34,878 nt of DNA from Chloroflexota bacterium (GTDB lineage: Bacteria > Chloroflexota > Anaerolineae > B4-G1 > DUEL01), in contig DROW01000074.1 of the NCBI GenBank assembly GCA_011388675.1, positions 1 through 34,878 of the forward strand, given 5' to 3'. The first letter of the stretch is position 1. Every line of letters starts with the position of its first letter. Positions 18,919 through 32,879 of this stretch are shown one piece after another. The notes under the pieces were generated by a model. That model saw only the letters and a list, made by a program, of their open reading frames with translations. It made no database searches and had not been told where the DNA came from. Made by a program: the position numbers and the translations under genes.

Positions 18919-20148
18919 ATGCGCATCGCGGTCTACCACAACCTCCACTCCGGCGGTGCGCTGCGCACCCTCACCGAGCAGGTGCGGCGGCTGTCCGCCC
19001 GCCACGACCTGTCCCTCTTTGCGCTCGCCACGGCCGCGCCGGTGGAAACGGAGGGGGTGAAAGCGCGGGTCTTCCCCTTCCACCCCGGACCGGAACTGCG
19101 CCGTCCCTTCGGCCGGCTCAACCGGGCCGCGCGGGCGGCCGACCTGATCCGGCTGGCGCGGGTGAATCGAGCGGTGGCGCGGGCCATCGACGGGGGCGGC
19201 TTCGACGTGGTGCTGGTCCACCCCTGCCAGTTCAGCCAGGCCCCCTCCCTGCTCCAGCACCTGCGAACCCCTTCGGTCTATTACTGCCACGAGCCGCCGC
19301 GTCGGCTGTACGAGCCGCCGATCCCCCGTCCCTACCTGCGTCGCTCCTCGCTACGGGGCGTGCTGGATCGGGTGGACCCGGCGTTACGTTTCCACCGTGC
19401 CCTCCTGCGGAGAATCGACCGGGGGGCGACGCGGGCGGCCACGCGGGTCCTGGTCAACTCCCGCTTCACCCAGGCCAACGTCCGCCGCATTTACGGCGTC
19501 GCGGCCCACGTGTGCCGCCACGGGGTTGACGCGGACCGCTTCCGGCCCCTGGGACTGAGGCGGGACCGCTTCGTCCTTTCCGTGGGCGCGCTGACCCCCT
19601 ACAAGGGGTTCGACCTGCTGATCGAGGGGCTGGGCCGGCTGCCTGAGGCAGCCCGTCCGCCGTTGCGCCTCATCTGCAACTACGTCGAGCCGCAGGAGCG
19701 GGCCTACTTGGAGAACCTGGCGCAGGAGCGAGGAGTGAGCCTGGAGATCGAGGTGGGGGTGAGCGACGAAAATCTGATAAGGGCTTACAACCGCGCTGCG
19801 TTGGTCGCCTACACCCCCCACCGAGAGCCGCTGGGGCTGGTGCCGCTGGAGGCGATGGCCTGTGAGACGCCTGTGGTGGGAGTGGACGAGGGAGGGGTCC
19901 AGGAGACGATCCTGCACGGCCGAACGGGCCTGCGGGTTCCCCGCGATCCCCACGCCCTGGCCGAAGCGATCGGCGACCTGCTGGAATATCCGGAGCGAGC
20001 GCGGGCGATGGGCCAGGCAGGCCGCCGCTGGGTGCTCGATGCGTGGGATTGGGAAGGAGCGGTCCAGGGGTTGGTCGCTCATCTGGAAGAAGCGGCACGA
20101 ACGCAGAACACAGAACGTAGAACACAGAACGCAGAACGTGAAACGTGA
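18919..20148 (+). CDS. GT4-type glycosyltransferase B
   Basis: 409 residues. The N-terminus MRIAVYHNLHSGGALRT has the Gly-Gly acceptor-side loop; VLSVGALTPYKGFDLLIEGL and EPLGLVPLEAMACETPVVGV mark the nucleotide-sugar domain with the E-x7-E pair. The middle contains CHEPPRRLYEPPIPRPYLR, seen in a subset of GT4 enzymes. I choose ATG 18919 because GGGAGG (18907-18912) is 6 nt upstream; the ATG at 18913 directly touches that site and would add two residues while overlapping the previous stop. The last 16 residues (RTQNTERRTQNAERET) are encoded by a 7-nt tandem repeat that runs up to and includes the stop codon. Confidence 0.92.
   Translation: MRIAVYHNLHSGGALRTLTEQVRRLSARHDLSLFALATAAPVETEGVKARVFPFHPGPELRRPFGRLNRAARAADLIRLARVNRAVARAIDGGGFDVVLVHPCQFSQAPSLLQHLRTPSVYYCHEPPRRLYEPPIPRPYLRRSSLRGVLDRVDPALRFHRALLRRIDRGATRAATRVLVNSRFTQANVRRIYGVAAHVCRHGVDADRFRPLGLRRDRFVLSVGALTPYKGFDLLIEGLGRLPEAARPPLRLICNYVEPQERAYLENLAQERGVSLEIEVGVSDENLIRAYNRAALVAYTPHREPLGLVPLEAMACETPVVGVDEGGVQETILHGRTGLRVPRDPHALAEAIGDLLEYPERARAMGQAGRRWVLDAWDWEGAVQGLVAHLEEAARTQNTERRTQNAERET
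20100..20148 (+). repeat. 7-nt tandem array, seven units, at a gene 3' end
   Basis: Seven consecutive 7-nt units of the form AACRYAG/AACGTGA (aacgcag, aacacag, aacgtag, aacacag, aacgcag, aacgtga, aacgtga) occupy 49 bp and end exactly with the TGA stop of the GT4 gene. Three units equal seven codons, which produces the RTQNTER/RTQNAER peptide pattern. Confidence 0.85.
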
Positions 20149-20169: not shown

Positions 20170-20799
20170 ATGGCGCAATCGATGGACCTGACTACAGAAA
20201 GACCGACAGAACCGGATGTACTGCCGTACACGCACTTCTGGCGCAAGTTCTGGCGCAACATGCCCCCCCGCGACAAGGTGATCGCGGCGCTGGGGGTCCT
20301 GCGGTGGATGCTGCGCTTCTACCAGTTCGACTCCCGTGAGCCGTTCATCATCGAGCGCAGGGTCCAGGTCTTGAAGTGGAAAGGGGGACGGATCGAGGTC
20401 GGACGGGGGGCCCGGCTGGCGATGGGGAGCAAGATCGTCTGCGGAGGGCACCTGGTCATCGGCCCACGGACCATCATCGGCAACAACAACGTGATTATGT
20501 GCGCTACCGAGGTCAAGATCGGCGCGCGCTGTATGATCAGTTGGAACTGCAGCATCTTCGACTCCATCGGCCACAAGATGTGGCTGGAACATACCGGCGA
20601 GGCGGAGATGGAGGCCCCCATCACCATCGGCAACGACGTTTGGATCGGTCCGTACTCCATCATTATGAAGGGCGTGACCATCGGCGATAACTGCATCATC
20701 GGCGCGGGGTCGGTGGTGCGGCGGGACGTGCCGCCCAACTCGCTGGTCTACGGCAACCCGGCCCGACGGGCGGGAACGGTCGTGCGATGGGAGCGGTAG
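20170..20799 (+). CDS. Left-handed beta-helix acyltransferase 1
   Basis: 209 residues; ATG 20170 is chosen over the GTG at 20152 because GGAGGTGA lies at 20157-20164. Residues 1-65 form a helical, basic N-terminal extension. Hexapeptide repeats run from about 68 to 200 (for example IGPRTIIGNNNVIM, APITIGNDVWIGPYSIIMKGVTIGDNCIIGAGSVV, closing VYGNPARRAG). A candidate catalytic His lies in FDSIGHKMW. The family forms trimers and moves acetyl from acetyl-CoA to a sugar hydroxyl or amine. It is a paralogue of the protein encoded at 27329. The SGNH protein encoded next could cooperate in O-acetylation outside, but that is inference. Confidence 0.9.
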   Translation: MAQSMDLTTERPTEPDVLPYTHFWRKFWRNMPPRDKVIAALGVLRWMLRFYQFDSREPFIIERRVQVLKWKGGRIEVGRGARLAMGSKIVCGGHLVIGPRTIIGNNNVIMCATEVKIGARCMISWNCSIFDSIGHKMWLEHTGEAEMEAPITIGNDVWIGPYSIIMKGVTIGDNCIIGAGSVVRRDVPPNSLVYGNPARRAGTVVRWER

Positions 20800-20800
20800 G

Positions 20801-22015
20801 ATGAGAAAGGTCGGAACCGTCTTCGGCGTGGGCTTGCTGGTCGGCCTACTCCTCCTGATCGGCCTGGAGGCGGCCGCCCGGATCCTCCACTGGTGGCCCG
20901 ACCCCTTCTTCCAGCCCGACGAGCGGTTCGGCGTCTTCCACATCCCCAACGCCGAGGGGTGGTGGGTCAACATCGACGCGCCCGACGAGTTCCAGACCTA
21001 CGTCCGCATCAACTCCAAGGGGCTACGGGACCGCGAATACCCCTACGAGAAGCCGCCGGGAACGTTCCGCATCCTGGTCCTGGGCGATTCCTACGCCGAC
21101 GCGCTGGAGGTGCCGCTCGAGGATTCGTTCCAGGAAGTGCTGGAGGCCCGGCTGAACGAACAAATGGACCAGCCCGTCGAGGTGATCAACGGGGGAGTAT
21201 GGGGCTACGGCAACGATCAGGAACTCCTGTTCTACCGACTGGAGGGACGGAAATATCAGCCCGATCTCGTCCTCCTCGCCTTCCAGCCCAACAGCGACGT
21301 GCTGGAGAACCACCGGGAGATGGAGACCCGCTACATGGGGCGGGAGTACAAGCCGTTCTTCGTGCTCGACGAGGAAGGGGAACTGGAATTGGTCAACTTT
21401 CCTTTCCGTGTCGAGCCGGAACCGCCCCCACGGAACCTTCTGGAACGGGTCAAACGGTTCCTCGCCGCCAACTCCCGCGCCTACCCGGTGGTCGGTCGAT
21501 ACGTCAAGTCGCGGATGAAGGGGATCACCGAGTGGCTTCAGCAAGCGGGAGTGATGGAGCCGATCCCAGGGGAGACGGTCTCCGAGGGGATCCCGATGGG
21601 AATGTACCTCTACGCCGCGGACTACCCGCCCGAATGGGAGGAGGCCTGGTCCGTCACAAAGGCCATCATCGCCCAACTGAAACGGGAGGTGGAGGCCGAC
21701 GGGGCCCGCCTGGTGGTGGTCATCCTCCCCGACCGCCACCTGGTGGAGGGCGACTACCTGGCCTGGGCGCTACGCACTTACCCGGCGATGCAGGGAAGGG
21801 AGTGGGACCTGGACAAACCCAATCGAATCATGCGGGACTTCCTCACCGAGCAGGGGATTCCCTATCTGGAGATGGTCGATGAGTTCCGCCAGCACGCTGA
21901 GGAGACCGGGCGACCTCTCTACTACCCCAGGGACGGACACTGGAACGTCGAGGGGCATCGGCTGGGGGGCGAACTGATCGCTAGGTGGCTCTTGGAGCAG
22001 GGGCTGGTGAGGTGA
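20801..22015 (+). CDS. Membrane-anchored SGNH/GDSL-type protein
   Basis: 404 residues. Residues 6-27 form an N-terminal membrane helix (VGTVFGVGLLVGLLLLIGLEAAA), so the domain faces outside. SGNH blocks: LVLGDSYADAL with Ser97, the Gly in NGGVWGYGNDQE, Asn in AFQPNSD, and DGHWNVEGH with Asp378 and His380. All four catalytic positions therefore appear present. Known members are esterases or O-acetyltransferases acting on sugars (AlgX/AlgJ and OAT-type relatives). The position one base after an acyltransferase gene suggests editing or transfer of acyl groups on the glycan, although plain hydrolysis is equally possible. The start directly follows the preceding stop, and ribosome-site sequence is weak (tagg), pointing to translational coupling. 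Confidence 0.85.
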   Translation: MRKVGTVFGVGLLVGLLLLIGLEAAARILHWWPDPFFQPDERFGVFHIPNAEGWWVNIDAPDEFQTYVRINSKGLRDREYPYEKPPGTFRILVLGDSYADALEVPLEDSFQEVLEARLNEQMDQPVEVINGGVWGYGNDQELLFYRLEGRKYQPDLVLLAFQPNSDVLENHREMETRYMGREYKPFFVLDEEGELELVNFPFRVEPEPPPRNLLERVKRFLAANSRAYPVVGRYVKSRMKGITEWLQQAGVMEPIPGETVSEGIPMGMYLYAADYPPEWEEAWSVTKAIIAQLKREVEADGARLVVVILPDRHLVEGDYLAWALRTYPAMQGREWDLDKPNRIMRDFLTEQGIPYLEMVDEFRQHAEETGRPLYYPRDGHWNVEGHRLGGELIARWLLEQGLVR

Positions 22016-22016
22016 T

Positions 22017-22045
22017 GGGGGACTGGGGGACTGGGGGACAGGGGG
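22017..22045 (+). repeat. 8-nt array forming a perfect four-run G-quadruplex motif
   Basis: Four runs of five Gs at 22017-22021, 22025-22029, 22033-22037 and 22041-22045 are separated by the 3-nt loops act, act and aca (unit gggggact). The array lies on the mRNA-like strand, begins one base after the stop of the SGNH gene, and ends 3 nt before the ribosome site (GGAGG, 22049-22053) of the FG-GAP gene. Confidence 0.85.
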
Positions 22046-22058
22046 ATTGGAGGAGAGG

Positions 22059-25000
22059 ATGGAGAGGACAAAAGGGTGGATGGTGCTGGGAGCGCTGGGG
22101 GGAGGAGTGGCGGTGGTCGCTCTCCTGCTGGGCCTGTTGAGCGCCTCGCCGACGGTGCGTGCCTCGCCGCCCGTGGAGGGGAATCCCCTCTCGTTCGACA
22201 CCGCCGAGCCTCTGTTCGCGCCGGACGAGGACGTGCTGGGGCTTGCCGTGGCAGACCTGGACCGCGACGGTGATCCGGACCTGGCCTTCGCCCCCGGTGC
22301 GACGGTGCGCATCGCCGCAGGGGAGGGGTTCGCCACCTCGACCGACGTGGGAACCTGCGCCGGGACGGTGAACAGATTGGCAGTGGCCGACCTCGACCGG
22401 GACGGCAGAATCGACCTGATCGCTTTCTGCGACGGCGAGGTCCGCCTGTGGCGAAACCCCGGCGATCCCTTCACCATGCCCTGGACGGAAACCGGCGCGG
22501 TGACCGCGTCCGCCGTGCTGACCTACCCGGCGGGGACCGTGGCCGACCTGGATCAGGACGGCGCGCCCGACCTGGTCGGCGCGGGAAGCGACGGAAGGAT
22601 CTACCTCTGGCGCAATCCGATGGACCTCGGTGGCCCCTTCACCGCCGACTGGGGGCCTCCGACCCCGATGGACCCCGCCGACGGGCCGGTCCACGCCGTC
22701 GCCCTGGCCGATATGAATTGGGACGGTCGGCCGGATCTGCTGGCGGCGGTCGGTGGGGAGATGCGCGTCTACCAGAACCCCAGCGCGCCGTTCTCCTCCC
22801 CGTGGTCCGTCTCCCAGGCCTGGGCCGGGGCCGGGAGCGATCTTCTCTCCATCGTCACGGCCGATTTCGACCGGGACGGCCTCCCGGACCTCGCGGCAGG
22901 CGATGCGGCAGGCCGCATCCTGGGCTGGTCGAATCCCTTCACGCCGGGGCAGCCCTTCGGTGGCATGCCGCCCTCGGCGACGATCCTGGGCACGCTGGGC
23001 GGCCCGGCCTTCGCGCTCACCGCGGCCGATCTCGACCACGACGGCAAACCGGACCTGGCCGCTGCTGGGGGCGGGGCAACCCCCAGCCTCCACGTCTGGC
23101 GGAACGCCGACGGGCTGGGTGCGCCGTGGGATGGGGGGCAGGTGGGGACGTGGGGCGACGCGCTGCGCGCGCTGGCGACGGCGGATCTGGACGGGGACGG
23201 GGACGACGACCTGATCGCCGGAAGTGAGAGCAGCGCGGCCGCCGAGGTCGTCCGTTGGTCCAACGCCATCCTCCATCGTAACGCGCTCTTCCCCGAGAAG
23301 GCCACCCCCATCGAAAGCCGCCCCGCCGACGTGCAGGCACTGGCCGCTGGCGACCTGAACCGGGACGGCATACCCGACCTAGTCGGCGGCGACAGCCTGG
23401 GCTACGTCCTCATCTGGGAAAGCGGCGGCTCGCCCACCACGGCTCTCTGGACCGAGTACGTCGTCGGGCGGATCGGTGAGGTGAAGGCGGTCGCTCTGGG
23501 CGACCTGGACGGAGACGGCGACCTGGAGATCGTCACCGGACACGACGACCCGCCCCGCCTGCTGGTCTGGCGGAACGAGGGAACCGGCCTGGAGGGACCG
23601 TGGCGGGACACCGTCGTCGGCGCCCCCCCCGATCCGGTGGCGACCATCGCGGTGGCCGACCTGGACCGGGACGGTCATCCCGACCTGGTCACCGGCTTGG
23701 GGGAGCATTCCCTCAACCCGCACCCGGACCCCGACGCCACGGTCGTCCTCTGGCGCAACGACGGCACCCCCTTCGACACCCCCTGGCCCTCCACCAATGC
23801 CGCCGTCCTCACCTACAGCGTCAACAGCGTGGCGGTGGGGGACCTGGACGGGGACGGGTGGCCGGACATCGTGGCCGGGACCGACCACGGAGAGCCGCTG
23901 GGGGACGCGGACAACCCGGTGCCCCGCGCCCAGTGGGCCGACCTCTTCCAACTGCTCGCCCTCCGCAACCCCGGCACCCCCTTCGCAGGGCCGTGGACCG
24001 TCGCCATCGTGGGGCGGGACCCGGCGACGGTCACCCTGGGGCCAGAGGACAACCCCAGCCACTACCACGGCTTCTGGGGCGCGACCGTCAACGCCGTCGC
24101 CCTGGGTGATCTGGACCGGGACGGCGACCTGGATATCGTCTCCGGCGACGGGGTCGAGGCGGACTACCAGTTGAAGGTGTGGGAGAACGACGGCACCCCC
24201 TTCGATGGGCAACCGGCCTCGTTCCACTGGACTTGGCAGCCCACGGCGGTCTGGTACGGCACGCCCCCCAGCCCTCCCTGGATGGGCGGCGCGGTGGTGG
24301 CGCTGACGGTGGCGGACTTCAACCGAGATGGCTGGCCGGACATCGCGCCGGGGATCACCCGCTGGCTGCGGATGTGGTTCGAGAACACCGGCACGCCGTT
24401 CGGAAGTTCCATCACCGACACCCACTGGATCGCCCACACCATCGTCCCCAACCAGGAGATCGTCCGCGCCGTCGTGGCGGCGGACTTCGATCGGGACGGC
24501 GACGCCGACCTCGCCACCGGCAGCGAGCGATGGGACGGCCCGGAACTCACCTACTGGCACAACGACGGGGGCCACATCTGCGAGATCGCCGCGTCGACCG
24601 ATGCGCCACCGATCCAGCACCTGGAGACGGACGACGTCCTGGCGATCAGAGTAAGCCACGAGGGCCAGGACAGCGAAGAGCAGGCCCGCCTGGTCCGCTG
24701 GCGGCTCCGCTTCACCGGGCCGGACGGTACGCCGTTGACCAGCGAGCAGGCCAACGACCTGATCGATACGCTCTGGATCTACCGGGACGGTGGGAACCAA
24801 CGGTGGACCACGGGGGATACGCCCGTCCTCACGACGACCACGATGAGCCTGGACAGCGAGGGGTATCAGACGTTGACCTTCGCCCTTGGAGACCCTCTGA
24901 TGGTCCTCTCGCCGGGGGAGACGGTCTACTACTTCGTCGTCGTGCGCATCGCCGACGGGGCGATGAGCGCCACGCCCAACGAGTTCCAGGTCTGGTTCGA

Positions 25001-26354
25001 CGCCGACGCCGACTCGCTGGCAGAGGGCGTCGACAGCGGAGCCAGCCTCTTCATCGGCGATACCGATCCCGTCGGCTCCGGCATCGTGGCGGCGGTCGGT
25101 CCACCCGCCTCCATCGGCGTGGAAAGTCGAGGGGATGGGAAGGGGACCGAGGTGGAGACGTGGGAGATCGCCTCCGGCTATTTCTACGACTTCCACGCCG
25201 TCGCCCGCGATGCGCTGGGCCACTTCGTCCAGGCCGAACCGGCCACGTGGACGTTGGTGCCGGTGAGCGGTGGAGTCGTTCCGGGCGACCTGTCGGTAGG
25301 CCCCGACGGGACCTGGGCCCGCTTCTCCGGCCACCTGACCGGCACGGCGCGCCTGGTGATCACCCACACCACGCTAGGGACCGACACGACGGGCCTGATC
25401 CGCGTGACGCCCCCGCCGACCCAGATGGTCCTGGAAGCCGACCCGCCGGAGATGGTCGCCGATGGGACCTCCAGCATCACCCTGCGGGCCTACCTGTGGG
25501 ACGGCCCGGGAGATCCGGTGGCGGACCACGTGCCGGTGACCTTCACGGTGGTCGGCGGCGAGGCATCGGCCCATCTTCCTGCCGACCCCTTCGTCACGAC
25601 GACGTTGGGCGGCGTCGCCTCCGCCCCTCTCCTGGCCGACATCCGCACCGGCCAGGTCCGGGTGCGGGCGGAGACGGGCAGGGTGACGGACGTGGTCACC
25701 GTAACCCTCCGGCCCGGCCCGCTCGACCGCTTCCGGGTGAAAGGTTACTCCACGGTGGTCTACGCCGGCGAGCACCTGTTCACGGGACCGGAGGTTACCG
25801 CCCTCGACCTGTACGGCAACGTGAAGACCGACTACACCGGCGCTGTCTACTTCCTCTCCAGCGACCCCCAGGCGACCCTTTCGTACACCCTCGGCTCCCC
25901 GTACACCTTCACCCCCGCCGATGGAGGCGTGCACTGGTTTACGGGGACTGCCTTCGTGCTGAGAACGGCGGGGATGCAGACGATCACCGTGACCGATGGG
26001 ACGGTCGCCGAGCCCTTCGGCCCGATCGAGGTCCGCCACGCCTTTGCGGTGGGCCGGATCGAGTTGCATATGGCCCCCGCTGTGATCACCGCCGGGGAAC
26101 GGACCACCGCCGTCGTCGAAGGGTTCGACCTTTACGGCAATCCGATGGGAGAACTGGACCCCATTATGTGCAAATACACGATCGACGCGGAGGCCGGCGG
26201 CGAATGGGTGGGGAACGTGTACACGACGGAACGGTTCGGAACGTGGACGGTCGTAGCCACGACGCGCACGGACCCGCCCCACAGCGACTCCGCGACCCTC
26301 TGGGTGCTGCCCACGGCGCGGATCTTCCTGCCGCTGGTCCTGGCAGAACGATAG
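22059..26354 (+). CDS. Large secreted FG-GAP/VCBS beta-propeller and Ig-like surface protein
   Basis: 1431 residues from ATG 22059 (GGAGG at 22049-22053; a TTG at 22047 is a weaker option). A signal sequence spans 7-30, with a possible cleavage after VRA35. Between about residues 60 and 815 I count 14 FG-GAP repeats with calcium-loop signatures such as DLDRDGDPDLA, DLDQDGAPDLV and DFNRDGWPDIA; fourteen fits two seven-bladed propellers. Residues about 838-1014 form a separate beta-rich domain. Three Ig/BIg-like domains follow (about 1121-1221, 1223-1327, 1329-1419), two with the LDLYGN/FDLYGN motif. The C-terminus is ARIFLPLVLAER. It should be a calcium-binding surface or matrix protein, perhaps binding the glycan made by the operon. 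There is no LPXTG motif and no C-terminal membrane helix. Confidence 0.9.
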   Translation: MERTKGWMVLGALGGGVAVVALLLGLLSASPTVRASPPVEGNPLSFDTAEPLFAPDEDVLGLAVADLDRDGDPDLAFAPGATVRIAAGEGFATSTDVGTCAGTVNRLAVADLDRDGRIDLIAFCDGEVRLWRNPGDPFTMPWTETGAVTASAVLTYPAGTVADLDQDGAPDLVGAGSDGRIYLWRNPMDLGGPFTADWGPPTPMDPADGPVHAVALADMNWDGRPDLLAAVGGEMRVYQNPSAPFSSPWSVSQAWAGAGSDLLSIVTADFDRDGLPDLAAGDAAGRILGWSNPFTPGQPFGGMPPSATILGTLGGPAFALTAADLDHDGKPDLAAAGGGATPSLHVWRNADGLGAPWDGGQVGTWGDALRALATADLDGDGDDDLIAGSESSAAAEVVRWSNAILHRNALFPEKATPIESRPADVQALAAGDLNRDGIPDLVGGDSLGYVLIWESGGSPTTALWTEYVVGRIGEVKAVALGDLDGDGDLEIVTGHDDPPRLLVWRNEGTGLEGPWRDTVVGAPPDPVATIAVADLDRDGHPDLVTGLGEHSLNPHPDPDATVVLWRNDGTPFDTPWPSTNAAVLTYSVNSVAVGDLDGDGWPDIVAGTDHGEPLGDADNPVPRAQWADLFQLLALRNPGTPFAGPWTVAIVGRDPATVTLGPEDNPSHYHGFWGATVNAVALGDLDRDGDLDIVSGDGVEADYQLKVWENDGTPFDGQPASFHWTWQPTAVWYGTPPSPPWMGGAVVALTVADFNRDGWPDIAPGITRWLRMWFENTGTPFGSSITDTHWIAHTIVPNQEIVRAVVAADFDRDGDADLATGSERWDGPELTYWHNDGGHICEIAASTDAPPIQHLETDDVLAIRVSHEGQDSEEQARLVRWRLRFTGPDGTPLTSEQANDLIDTLWIYRDGGNQRWTTGDTPVLTTTTMSLDSEGYQTLTFALGDPLMVLSPGETVYYFVVVRIADGAMSATPNEFQVWFDADADSLAEGVDSGASLFIGDTDPVGSGIVAAVGPPASIGVESRGDGKGTEVETWEIASGYFYDFHAVARDALGHFVQAEPATWTLVPVSGGVVPGDLSVGPDGTWARFSGHLTGTARLVITHTTLGTDTTGLIRVTPPPTQMVLEADPPEMVADGTSSITLRAYLWDGPGDPVADHVPVTFTVVGGEASAHLPADPFVTTTLGGVASAPLLADIRTGQVRVRAETGRVTDVVTVTLRPGPLDRFRVKGYSTVVYAGEHLFTGPEVTALDLYGNVKTDYTGAVYFLSSDPQATLSYTLGSPYTFTPADGGVHWFTGTAFVLRTAGMQTITVTDGTVAEPFGPIEVRHAFAVGRIELHMAPAVITAGERTTAVVEGFDLYGNPMGELDPIMCKYTIDAEAGGEWVGNVYTTERFGTWTVVATTRTDPPHSDSATLWVLPTARIFLPLVLAER

Positions 26355-30655: not shown

Positions 30656-31584
30656 GGGTGGACGTCTCGGTCATTGTGGTCAGTTGGAATACACGGAGAT
30701 TGCTGGAACAGTGCCTGCGGTCTGTCTACGAGACGGCGGAGGACCTGGCGGTGGAGGTCATCGTGGTGGACAACGGCTCCTCCGACGGAAGCGTGGAGGC
30801 AGTGCGGGATCGGTTCCCCGAGGCCCGGTTGATCGTCAATTCCGAGAACGTGGGGTTCGCTCGGGCCAACAACCAGGCGATGGAGGTCGCTCGCGGGCGG
30901 TACTTCCTGCTCCTGAACAGCGACGCTGTGCTGCGGCCCGGCGCGCTGAAGGCACTGGTGGGCTGCCTGGAGGCCCACCCCCGGGCGGGGATCGTGGGAG
31001 GGCGGCTGGTGAACCCCGACGGGAGTTTCCAGGCCTCGTATATGGACTTTCCCACGCTTTGGGGGGAAATCTTGCTGATGCTCAAACTGCACCCCTTGTT
31101 CCACTCCCCTTACTTCCCCAGCCGGCCGCCGGAGAAAAGCGGGGTTGTGCGAGAGGCAGGCTGGGTCCCTGGGGCCTGCCTGCTGGTGCGGCGGGAGGTG
31201 TGGGAGGAGATCGGCGGGCTGGATGAGACCTACTTTATGTACTCCGAGGAAGTGGATTGGTGCTGGCGAGCCCGGCAGGCAGGCTGGAGGGTGTACTACA
31301 CACCCGAAGCGGAGATCGTCCACTGGGGCGGACAGAGCATCGGCCAGGTGCCGCTGGAGAAGCGGGCGTGGGTGTATCGAGGGAAGTGGCTCTTCTTCCG
31401 ACGACACCGGGGGAGACGGACGGCCACGCTGTTCCGCCTGGCCCTGCTCGGAACGACAGTGCTGAAGATGGGGGCGTGGCTCCCGCTGCTGGCCGCACCA
31501 GCCCGGGCGACGCGCGACCGCGCCCGACGGAACCTCCGGTCCTACCGCAGGCTGATCAGCGCGATGGGAGGGCTGACGGGATGA
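30652..31584 (+). CDS. GT2-family glycosyltransferase C (rhamnosyltransferase-like)
   Basis: 310 residues; ATG overlaps the preceding stop (ATGA). GT-A motifs: VSVIVVSWNTRRLL at 5-18, VVDNGSSDGS near 40-49, ENVGFARANNQAM, YFLLLNSDAVLRPGA near 84-98, WVPGACLLVRREVW and YFMYSEEVDWCWRAR near 199-213. The order and wording parallel the protein encoded at 26365, so the two are paralogues. The C-terminal part has a hydrophobic segment (LALLGTTVLKMGAWLPLLAAPA) that probably anchors it at the membrane. Donor and linkage are unknown; a rhamnosyltransferase-like role is the usual reading of this branch. Confidence 0.93.
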   Translation: MRVDVSVIVVSWNTRRLLEQCLRSVYETAEDLAVEVIVVDNGSSDGSVEAVRDRFPEARLIVNSENVGFARANNQAMEVARGRYFLLLNSDAVLRPGALKALVGCLEAHPRAGIVGGRLVNPDGSFQASYMDFPTLWGEILLMLKLHPLFHSPYFPSRPPEKSGVVREAGWVPGACLLVRREVWEEIGGLDETYFMYSEEVDWCWRARQAGWRVYYTPEAEIVHWGGQSIGQVPLEKRAWVYRGKWLFFRRHRGRRTATLFRLALLGTTVLKMGAWLPLLAAPARATRDRARRNLRSYRRLISAMGGLTG

Positions 31585-32879
31585 GGCGACCGTTGCGCGT
31601 CCTGTTCATCGCCCAGGTCTTCCCCTACCCTCTGGACAGCGGCCCCAAGATCCGGGCTTACTACGTCCTCCGCTATCTGGCTTCCCGCCACCGGGTGACG
31701 CTGGTGGCTTTCGTCACCCACCCCCGGGAACTGCAGTTCGTGGACCACCTGGCCTCCTTCTGCGAAGCGGTCTATCCGGTGCAACGGCCCCGCTCCCTCT
31801 GGCGGGAGGGGCTGGCGATGGCCCGCAGTCTCTTCACCGGCCGCCCCTTCATGATCGAGCGCCACTTCGACCGGGGGATGGCCCGCCTGGTGAAGGACCT
31901 GGCTGCGAGGGAACGGTTCGACCTGATCCACGTGGACCAGATCAAGGTGGCCCAGTACGGCCTGCGGATCAAGGGGGTCCCCCGCGTCATCGACAAGCAC
32001 AACGCCTACGCGCTGGTGCTGAAGGGCGTGGCCCAGACCGACCCCTCCCCGCTGCGGCGGCTGGTGGCCCGGCTGGACTGGCGCCGGATGGCCCGGTACG
32101 AGGGAATGGTCTGCCGCGTCTTCGACGGGGTGGTCGCCGTTACAGAGATGGATCGAGACGCACTGCTCCGGTTTTCCGGCAACGGGCGGGAGATCCCCGT
32201 GATCCCCATCGCCACCGACTGCGGGGCCGTCCGGCCGGTCCGCCGCCGGACCGACGCACGGGACATCCTGATCCTGGGCTCCCTCTTCTACCCCCCCAAC
32301 GTCGATGGGGCGGTCTGGTTCACCCGGGAGATCTTTCCCCGGGTGCGGGCGGAGGTGCCGGACGCGCGGCTGCTCCTGGTCGGCGGGCGACCCGCGCCGG
32401 AGGTGGTCGCCCTGGGGCGGGAGGACGGGGTGGAGGTCACGGGCTACGTGGAGGACCTGCAACCCTATCTGGAGCGGACGGCGGTGATGGCGGTGCCGCT
32501 CCGCTTCGGCAGCGGGATGCGGGTGAAGATCCTGGACGGCCTGGCCTGGGGTCTGCCGATGGTCTCCACCTCCGTCGGCTGCGAGGGGATCGACGTGACG
32601 CCTGGACAGGACATCCTGCTGGCCGACGCGCCGGAGACCTTCGCCGCCCAGGTGGTGCGGGTATTGCAGGATCGGCACTTGGCCGATGCGCTCTCCGCCA
32701 ACGGACGCCGCTTGGCGGAACAGCGGTACGACTGGCGGGTCCTCTACCCCCGTTGGGACGAGGTCTACGCCAGTGTGCTGGGAGATGGTGAGATAACCAA
32801 ACACCACAGAGGCACAGAGAACACGGAGAAATCTCAAGAAAACAGAGAAACCTCTGTGTCCTCTGCGCCTCTGTGGTGA
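31581..32879 (+). CDS. GT4-type glycosyltransferase D with repeat-derived tail
   Basis: 432 residues; ATG overlaps the preceding stop. The N-terminus RVLFIAQVFPYPLDSGPKIR and the C-terminal domain (LILGSLFYPPNVDGAVWF, GSGMRVKILDGLAWGLPMVST) make it a close paralogue of the enzyme encoded at 28006, of Stp1/TIGR03087 type. At the donor-binding position it has Asp319 where its paralogue has Glu316. From about residue 407 to the stop the protein reads KHHRGTENTEKSQENRETSV..., which comes from the inverted repeat at 32802-32878. The original stop was probably destroyed or displaced by that element. The enzyme domain is complete without this tail. Confidence 0.92.
   Translation: MRRPLRVLFIAQVFPYPLDSGPKIRAYYVLRYLASRHRVTLVAFVTHPRELQFVDHLASFCEAVYPVQRPRSLWREGLAMARSLFTGRPFMIERHFDRGMARLVKDLAARERFDLIHVDQIKVAQYGLRIKGVPRVIDKHNAYALVLKGVAQTDPSPLRRLVARLDWRRMARYEGMVCRVFDGVVAVTEMDRDALLRFSGNGREIPVIPIATDCGAVRPVRRRTDARDILILGSLFYPPNVDGAVWFTREIFPRVRAEVPDARLLLVGGRPAPEVVALGREDGVEVTGYVEDLQPYLERTAVMAVPLRFGSGMRVKILDGLAWGLPMVSTSVGCEGIDVTPGQDILLADAPETFAAQVVRVLQDRHLADALSANGRRLAEQRYDWRVLYPRWDEVYASVLGDGEITKHHRGTENTEKSQENRETSVSSAPLW
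32802..32878. repeat. Dispersed inverted repeat (CACCACAGAGGC family) at a gene junction
   Basis: The left arm at 32802-32828 and right arm at 32852-32878 match as inverse complements at 24 of 27 positions around a 23-nt AT-richer loop. The arms begin caccacagaggc and end gcctctgtggtg. The element encodes the tail of the GT4 enzyme, contains most of its stop codon and ends 21 bp before the next start. A decayed relative lies at 3227-3298. The transcript could fold into a strong hairpin, but no T-run follows. Confidence 0.85.

Follow-up and report, generated by a model that had tools for sequence, protein, structure and literature searches.

The G-quadruplex motif found at a gene junction of the window (i.e., the whole stretch of 34,878 nucleotides analysed here, from a Chloroflexota bacterium) lies within a tandem array belonging to a dispersed, mostly intergenic family of octanucleotide repeats, TGGGKGAY. 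The array sits between the stop codon of one gene and the start of the next, and a related species keeps it at the same place without its tracts of five Gs. The window motif is probably a simple sequence repeat with the dynamics of replication slippage, whose all-G copy would be quadruplex-prone as a by-product. What looks attractive in isolation, a perfect quadruplex by a ribosome site, is thereby corrected to an extreme variant of a dispersed repeat, and the octamer family itself is more interesting than the quadruplex.

The junction and its G-rich array

The two genes at the junction are co-directional and part of a run of glycan genes (Table 1). The letters between them read TGA (22013-22015) T GGGGG ACT GGGGG ACT GGGGG ACA GGGGG ATT GGAGG AGAGG ATG (22059), where 22017-22045 is (GGGGGACT)2GGGGGACAGGGGG. 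The sequence-only reading, made earlier, had described four G5 tracts with 3-nt loops on the mRNA strand, separated by 1 nt from the upstream TGA and by 3 nt from the ribosome site (GGAGG), ahead of an FG-GAP open reading frame of 1431 codons, all of which is borne out here; the loops number three. The span it gave to the motif, 22017-22058, is right at the left end only, as the motif itself stops at 22045 and the rest is the Shine-Dalgarno region.

Table 1. Features at the junction, in coordinates of the window.
Feature	Position	Strand	Basis
Upstream gene, 404 aa, AlgX-like SGNH hydrolase domain, TGA stop	20801..22015	+	Orthologue in G001, 88% identical as protein
Octamer tandem array, four units TGGGGGAC TGGGGGAC TGGGGGAC AGGGGGAT	22016..22047	+	Sequence read, Tandem Repeats Finder, family members elsewhere
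Potential quadruplex (G5N3)3G5 within the octamer array	22017..22045	+	Sequence, pattern search, modelled fold
Degenerate fifth unit TGGAGGAG, in register, holding the Shine-Dalgarno GGAGG (22049-22053)	22048..22055	+	Sequence; array end at 22054 according to Tandem Repeats Finder
Downstream gene, 1431 aa, FG-GAP repeats and Big_1 domain	22059..26354	+	

Run on the window, Tandem Repeats Finder reports 22016-22054 as a repeat of period 8 with 4.9 copies of the unit TGGGGGAC. When up to three mismatches are allowed, (G5N3)3G5 has five matches in the window, four of them being registers of the junction array, whilst dinucleotide shuffles of the window yield a mean of 0.40 such near-matches and none of 100 shuffles reaches the observed five. 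The junction motif exceeds base-composition chance, but shuffled sequence is not the appropriate null when the motif is a tandem repeat. In its perfect form, the motif has the junction copy as its sole match in the window's own genome (G000) and the one genome of the same genus compared with it (G001). An assembly artefact was considered and rejected, given that the array is in the middle of its contig and that the G001 orthologue also has an array. A scan of limited reach over 20500-22600 found neither a promoter nor an intrinsic terminator. The FG-GAP gene itself contains a further G-rich stretch (23133-23155), in which at least four Gs in a row occur three times.

The octamer family in two genomes

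Three consecutive TGGGKGAY units, with one mismatch at most, are matched 106 times in G000 (at least 28 arrays) and 14 times in G001 (nine arrays), and the same pattern read backwards has no match in either genome. A looser array rule added two more G001 arrays, one of which is the orthologue of the window array, bringing the total to 39 (28 in G000, a lower bound, and 11 in G001). These arrays are dispersed, largely intergenic and mostly located between co-directional genes of unrelated functions, those downstream including phosphoglycerate kinase, a class-V aminotransferase and a phosphatidylethanolamine-binding protein. Genes at the array loci were called by a purpose-made codon model trained on nine window genes, not by a published caller, and 18 of the 20 flanking proteins tried have Pfam matches on the predicted strand. 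Exceptions to the intergenic location are one array at the 3′ end of a gene (L069) and three of the eight antisense arrays, which lie in or over coding frames and encode repeats such as PVTQSPSP or protein starts: L049 (7433-7520) is in a PMT-family glycosyltransferase with a PVPQSPSPPVTQSPSP repeat running to the contig end, whilst L068 (3013-3044) and L060 (3028-3059) are in proteins starting MTQSPSHP or MAITQSPGHPVT.

Elsewhere in G000 the units are mostly TGGGTGAC or TGGGTGAT, the usual form being TGGGTGAY. At position 5 of the 239 units T is found in 186 and G in 51, and the window array alone among the 39 has G there in every unit, which is what gives it its G5 tracts. The G5 quadruplex is therefore one end of the range of T/G variants of a single octamer repeat. 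No earlier account of the TGGGKGAY family was found in the literature searched by octamer strings and by heptameric or octameric intergenic repeats of Chloroflexi.

Conservation of place in the sister species

A search of 48 genomes from the order located the upstream gene in G000 and G001, and the remaining ones yielded no other orthologue of it, hence none of the junction, so that the window junction is compared with one related species only. The latter has TGGGTGGC TGGGTGGC AGGGTGAC, then AAAGGAG, then ATG. The sequence-only reading had suggested looking for the motif at the same place in relatives; what G001 keeps there is the octamer array, with no G5 tract. Both flanks of six of the 28 G000 arrays are present in the compared G001 DNA, and in all six the place is kept whilst the unit number or sequence differs, the counterparts being three arrays of at least three called units, one degenerate run, one remnant of about one unit (L055) and one that is unrecognisable (L061). 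The G001 junction orthologous to that of L057 has an array (L072, 2277-2324) that passes, still in phase, to another octamer, TCGCTGAT TCGCCGAT TCGCTGAC, and the array of L073 is likewise followed by a second octamer of a similar kind.

This pattern is probably the product of replication slippage, which would let arrays grow, shrink and change where their length is harmless, i.e., from a stop codon to the next Shine-Dalgarno, and a T-to-G variant at position 5 of the unit probably became fixed in all four window units, giving rise to the four tracts. What counts against slippage of an entirely neutral kind is the conservation of place between species whose proteins are about 88% identical, together with the orientation of the arrays discussed below (31 of 39 in the sense of their neighbours); a repeat under no selection would require neither.

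Quadruplex potential

In the fold model, 22001-22070 reaches -51.1 kcal/mol with the quadruplex term and -4.8 without it, whereas at the G001 junction the two values are -12.4 and -11.3, the quadruplex predicted there being marginal. Four tracts of at least three Gs (G3 pattern) are present in 33 of the 39 arrays, and four tracts of at least four Gs (G4+ pattern) in two. Upstream of starts such patterns are rare, with three of the G3 type and one of the G4+ type among 209 sampled in G000. A close relative of the window motif, the DNA (GGGGACT)3GGGG, is reported to form K+-stabilised quadruplexes that melt above 95 C (Rehm et al. 2015, PMC4692102). As for effects on translation, Lee et al. 2024 (PMC11087576) cite earlier work where it was lowered by a quadruplex lying 20 bp ahead of the start, whilst their own, at 46 bp upstream of the Shine-Dalgarno, raised it. 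Going by these analogies, folding of the window quadruplex as a physical event is likely and inhibition so near the FG-GAP start codon is plausible; if the junction is transcribed, its RNA probably folds in this way and may somewhat lower initiation of the FG-GAP gene.

The part of the sequence-only reading whereby folding could reduce re-initiation by ribosomes is in keeping with the strong modelled fold and with literature precedent. A further step, a dedicated RNA quadruplex that limits re-initiation or pauses the polymerase, keeping the FG-GAP protein below, or separate from, the upstream glycan enzymes, is unlikely. It would draw on the gap between the two fold energies, the uniqueness of the perfect motif in both genomes, its rarity near starts, the inhibition reported near start codons (PMC11087576) and the stability of nearly identical heptamer folds (PMC4692102). 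A dedicated regulator, however, is at odds with the lack of G5 tracts and the marginal modelled fold at the G001 junction, and the motif is already accounted for by its place in the octamer family, among whose 39 arrays it is an atypical one, GGGTG being what the usual unit has. The window quadruplex is thus probably a lineage-specific by-product, rather than a conserved regulator or a dedicated switch.

Orientation, stops and register

Thirty-one of the 39 arrays have their G-rich sequence on the mRNA strand of neighbouring genes (two-sided p = 2.9e-4), sense or antisense having been assigned by hand from the gene lists for ambiguous ones. The bias holds after dropping one of each of four orthologous pairs (27/35, p = 0.0019), three of which were recognised by both flanks and the fourth, L042 with L071, by visual comparison of the flank. 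The upstream stop is inside the array in 12 of the 31 sense arrays, and inside or within one unit of it in 19, of which 16 have it in the register of the repeat. Register is automatic for a TGA stop inside a sense array; among the stops that precede the called array, 8 of 13 are in register as opposed to the expected one in eight (p = 4e-5), which means that the upstream gene's 3′ end is often covered by degenerate units. Stops in all three frames are found on the G-rich strand of 31 of the 39 arrays, the C-rich strand has none in 30, and a Shine-Dalgarno core is found within 16 nt after 11 of the 31 sense arrays.

It could be argued from these figures that the family has a function in the RNA, as a stop cassette and spacer between cistrons, which would terminate the upstream gene, prevent read-through whatever the frame and provide the gap before the next Shine-Dalgarno. 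The TGA of the usual unit, which a period of 8 nt repeats in three frames, the difference between the two strands, the sense orientation and the register of the stops all suit such a role. Yet register comes automatically whenever a reading frame enters a sense array, and the window array has stops in no frame, for which reason the cassette was rejected as an account of that array specifically. With the evidence from other lineages given below, we regard it as rather improbable for the family as a whole. A broader version, in which the octamer has been recruited in this genus as a standard part of operon junctions, would have sense arrays supply the upstream stop, the stops in all frames and the spacer before the Shine-Dalgarno, whilst unit number and T/G variants, up to the quadruplex, tune translation of the downstream gene; this too we consider improbable.

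Descent of the arrays from duplicated Shine-Dalgarno segments, or their use as ribosome standby sites, is very improbable. GGGTGAT can pair with the 3′ end of 16S rRNA, and the fifth window unit is itself a Shine-Dalgarno site. For pairing with a 16S tail that may differ from the one in this genome, TGGGTGAT is placed among the two best of the 35 rotation classes that share its composition, but TGGGTGAC ranks 16 of 105 and the window unit TGGGGGAC 31 of 42. In addition, the core has no preferred phase relative to the repeat in the 11 arrays with a Shine-Dalgarno nearby (phases 3,3,3,5,5,5,2,2,4,0,6). Duplication of the Shine-Dalgarno as the origin of the arrays was rejected on account of these phases and of the poor pairing of the window unit.

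The octamer beyond the genus

An exact triple unit occurs in five of 400 sampled genomes of the phylum, and G000 is the only one where it is numerous. A scan of a collection of species genomes gave at least 104 stretches with the octamer from many phyla (L075-L178). For the 104 loci listed, the codon model was trained anew at each locus, which makes it rougher, and two loci were too short, leaving 102 classed arrays. Of these, among the matches listed, 16 sense and 24 antisense ones are between co-directional genes (p = 0.27), 14 are between convergent and eight between divergent genes, and 23 are at contig edges; without L152, a G001 array already counted above, the co-directional tally is 15 against 24 (p = 0.20). 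The sense bias is thus seen in this genus only, whilst the octamer itself recurs elsewhere; a universal sense rule was rejected on these counts, and orientation is no general requirement, which speaks against a stop cassette. Arrays in coding frames of other phyla, among the matches listed, are antisense in 17 cases and sense in none, but the TGA in the sense unit is by itself enough to keep that form out of coding frames. Among the matches listed, 39 arrays are sense to their upstream gene (L152 left out); ten of them begin at most 2 nt from its stop or over it, nine of the ten in register.

Relation to known repeats

The closest resemblance is to the G-rich heptamers that Rehm et al. 2015 (PMC4692102) describe as GGGGA(C/T)T in Nostoc and GGGAATC in Xanthomonas. 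Like the octamers, they are short G-rich tandem repeats, dispersed, mostly between genes and variable in unit number, and their place is often kept between related species next to unrelated genes; the window unit, GGGGGA(C/T)T, is the Nostoc unit plus one G. The differences are in the period (8 as opposed to 7), in the usual unit, here GGGTGA(C/T)T, and in the strand, since the heptamers located shortly upstream of open reading frames have their G-rich side mostly on the non-coding strand according to that report (PMC4692102), whereas the octamers of this genus, where neighbouring genes are co-directional, prefer the mRNA strand. The second comparison is with the stop-bearing TAACTGA direct repeats ahead of start codons in Beggiatoaceae (MacGregor 2015, PMC4679880), which are also short, run forward towards the next start, in part overlap the end of the upstream reading frame and are patchily distributed across phyla. 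Judged by the traits that define those repeats, the octamers share the forward orientation, and the upstream stop falls inside a good part of the sense arrays (12/31). The TAACTGA unit, however, has a period of 7 and is neither G-rich nor possessed of G-tracts, and it is described as mostly without a ribosome site (PMC4679880), as opposed to the 11/31 sense arrays followed by a Shine-Dalgarno core. The octamer family thus has traits of both heptamer systems, its period and unit being different from those of both and its strand preference from that of Nostoc and Xanthomonas.

The quadruplexes of Lee et al. 2024 in E. coli 5′ UTRs (PMC11087576) resemble the window motif in that four G-tracts precede a ribosome site on the mRNA strand. 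The one reported there is engineered, activating and 46 bp upstream of the Shine-Dalgarno, whilst the one predicted in the window is natural and 3 nt from it. The effect of such repeats between genes is a question left by the accounts of both heptamer systems (PMC4692102, PMC4679880), and the octamers, with T/G content, unit number and neighbours varying at matched junctions, form a natural series that could serve to measure it.

Other repeats in the same genomes

Other slippage-type families of period 7-8 are found between genes in G000 and G001, including period-7 units such as GAACGTC, TGAGGCG and GATGCGT. In the window, a heptamer array of GAACGCA/GAACACA (20099-20138) encodes the last residues of a glycosyltransferase at the 3′ end of its gene (18919-20148). 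An imperfect inverted repeat with CTCTGTG/CACAGAG units is located at 32798-32879; its right arm ends in GGTGA, which gives the stop codon of the gene at 31581-32879, and is widely dispersed, with 101 matches in G000 and 208 in G001 at up to two mismatches, as opposed to none for the reversed pattern.
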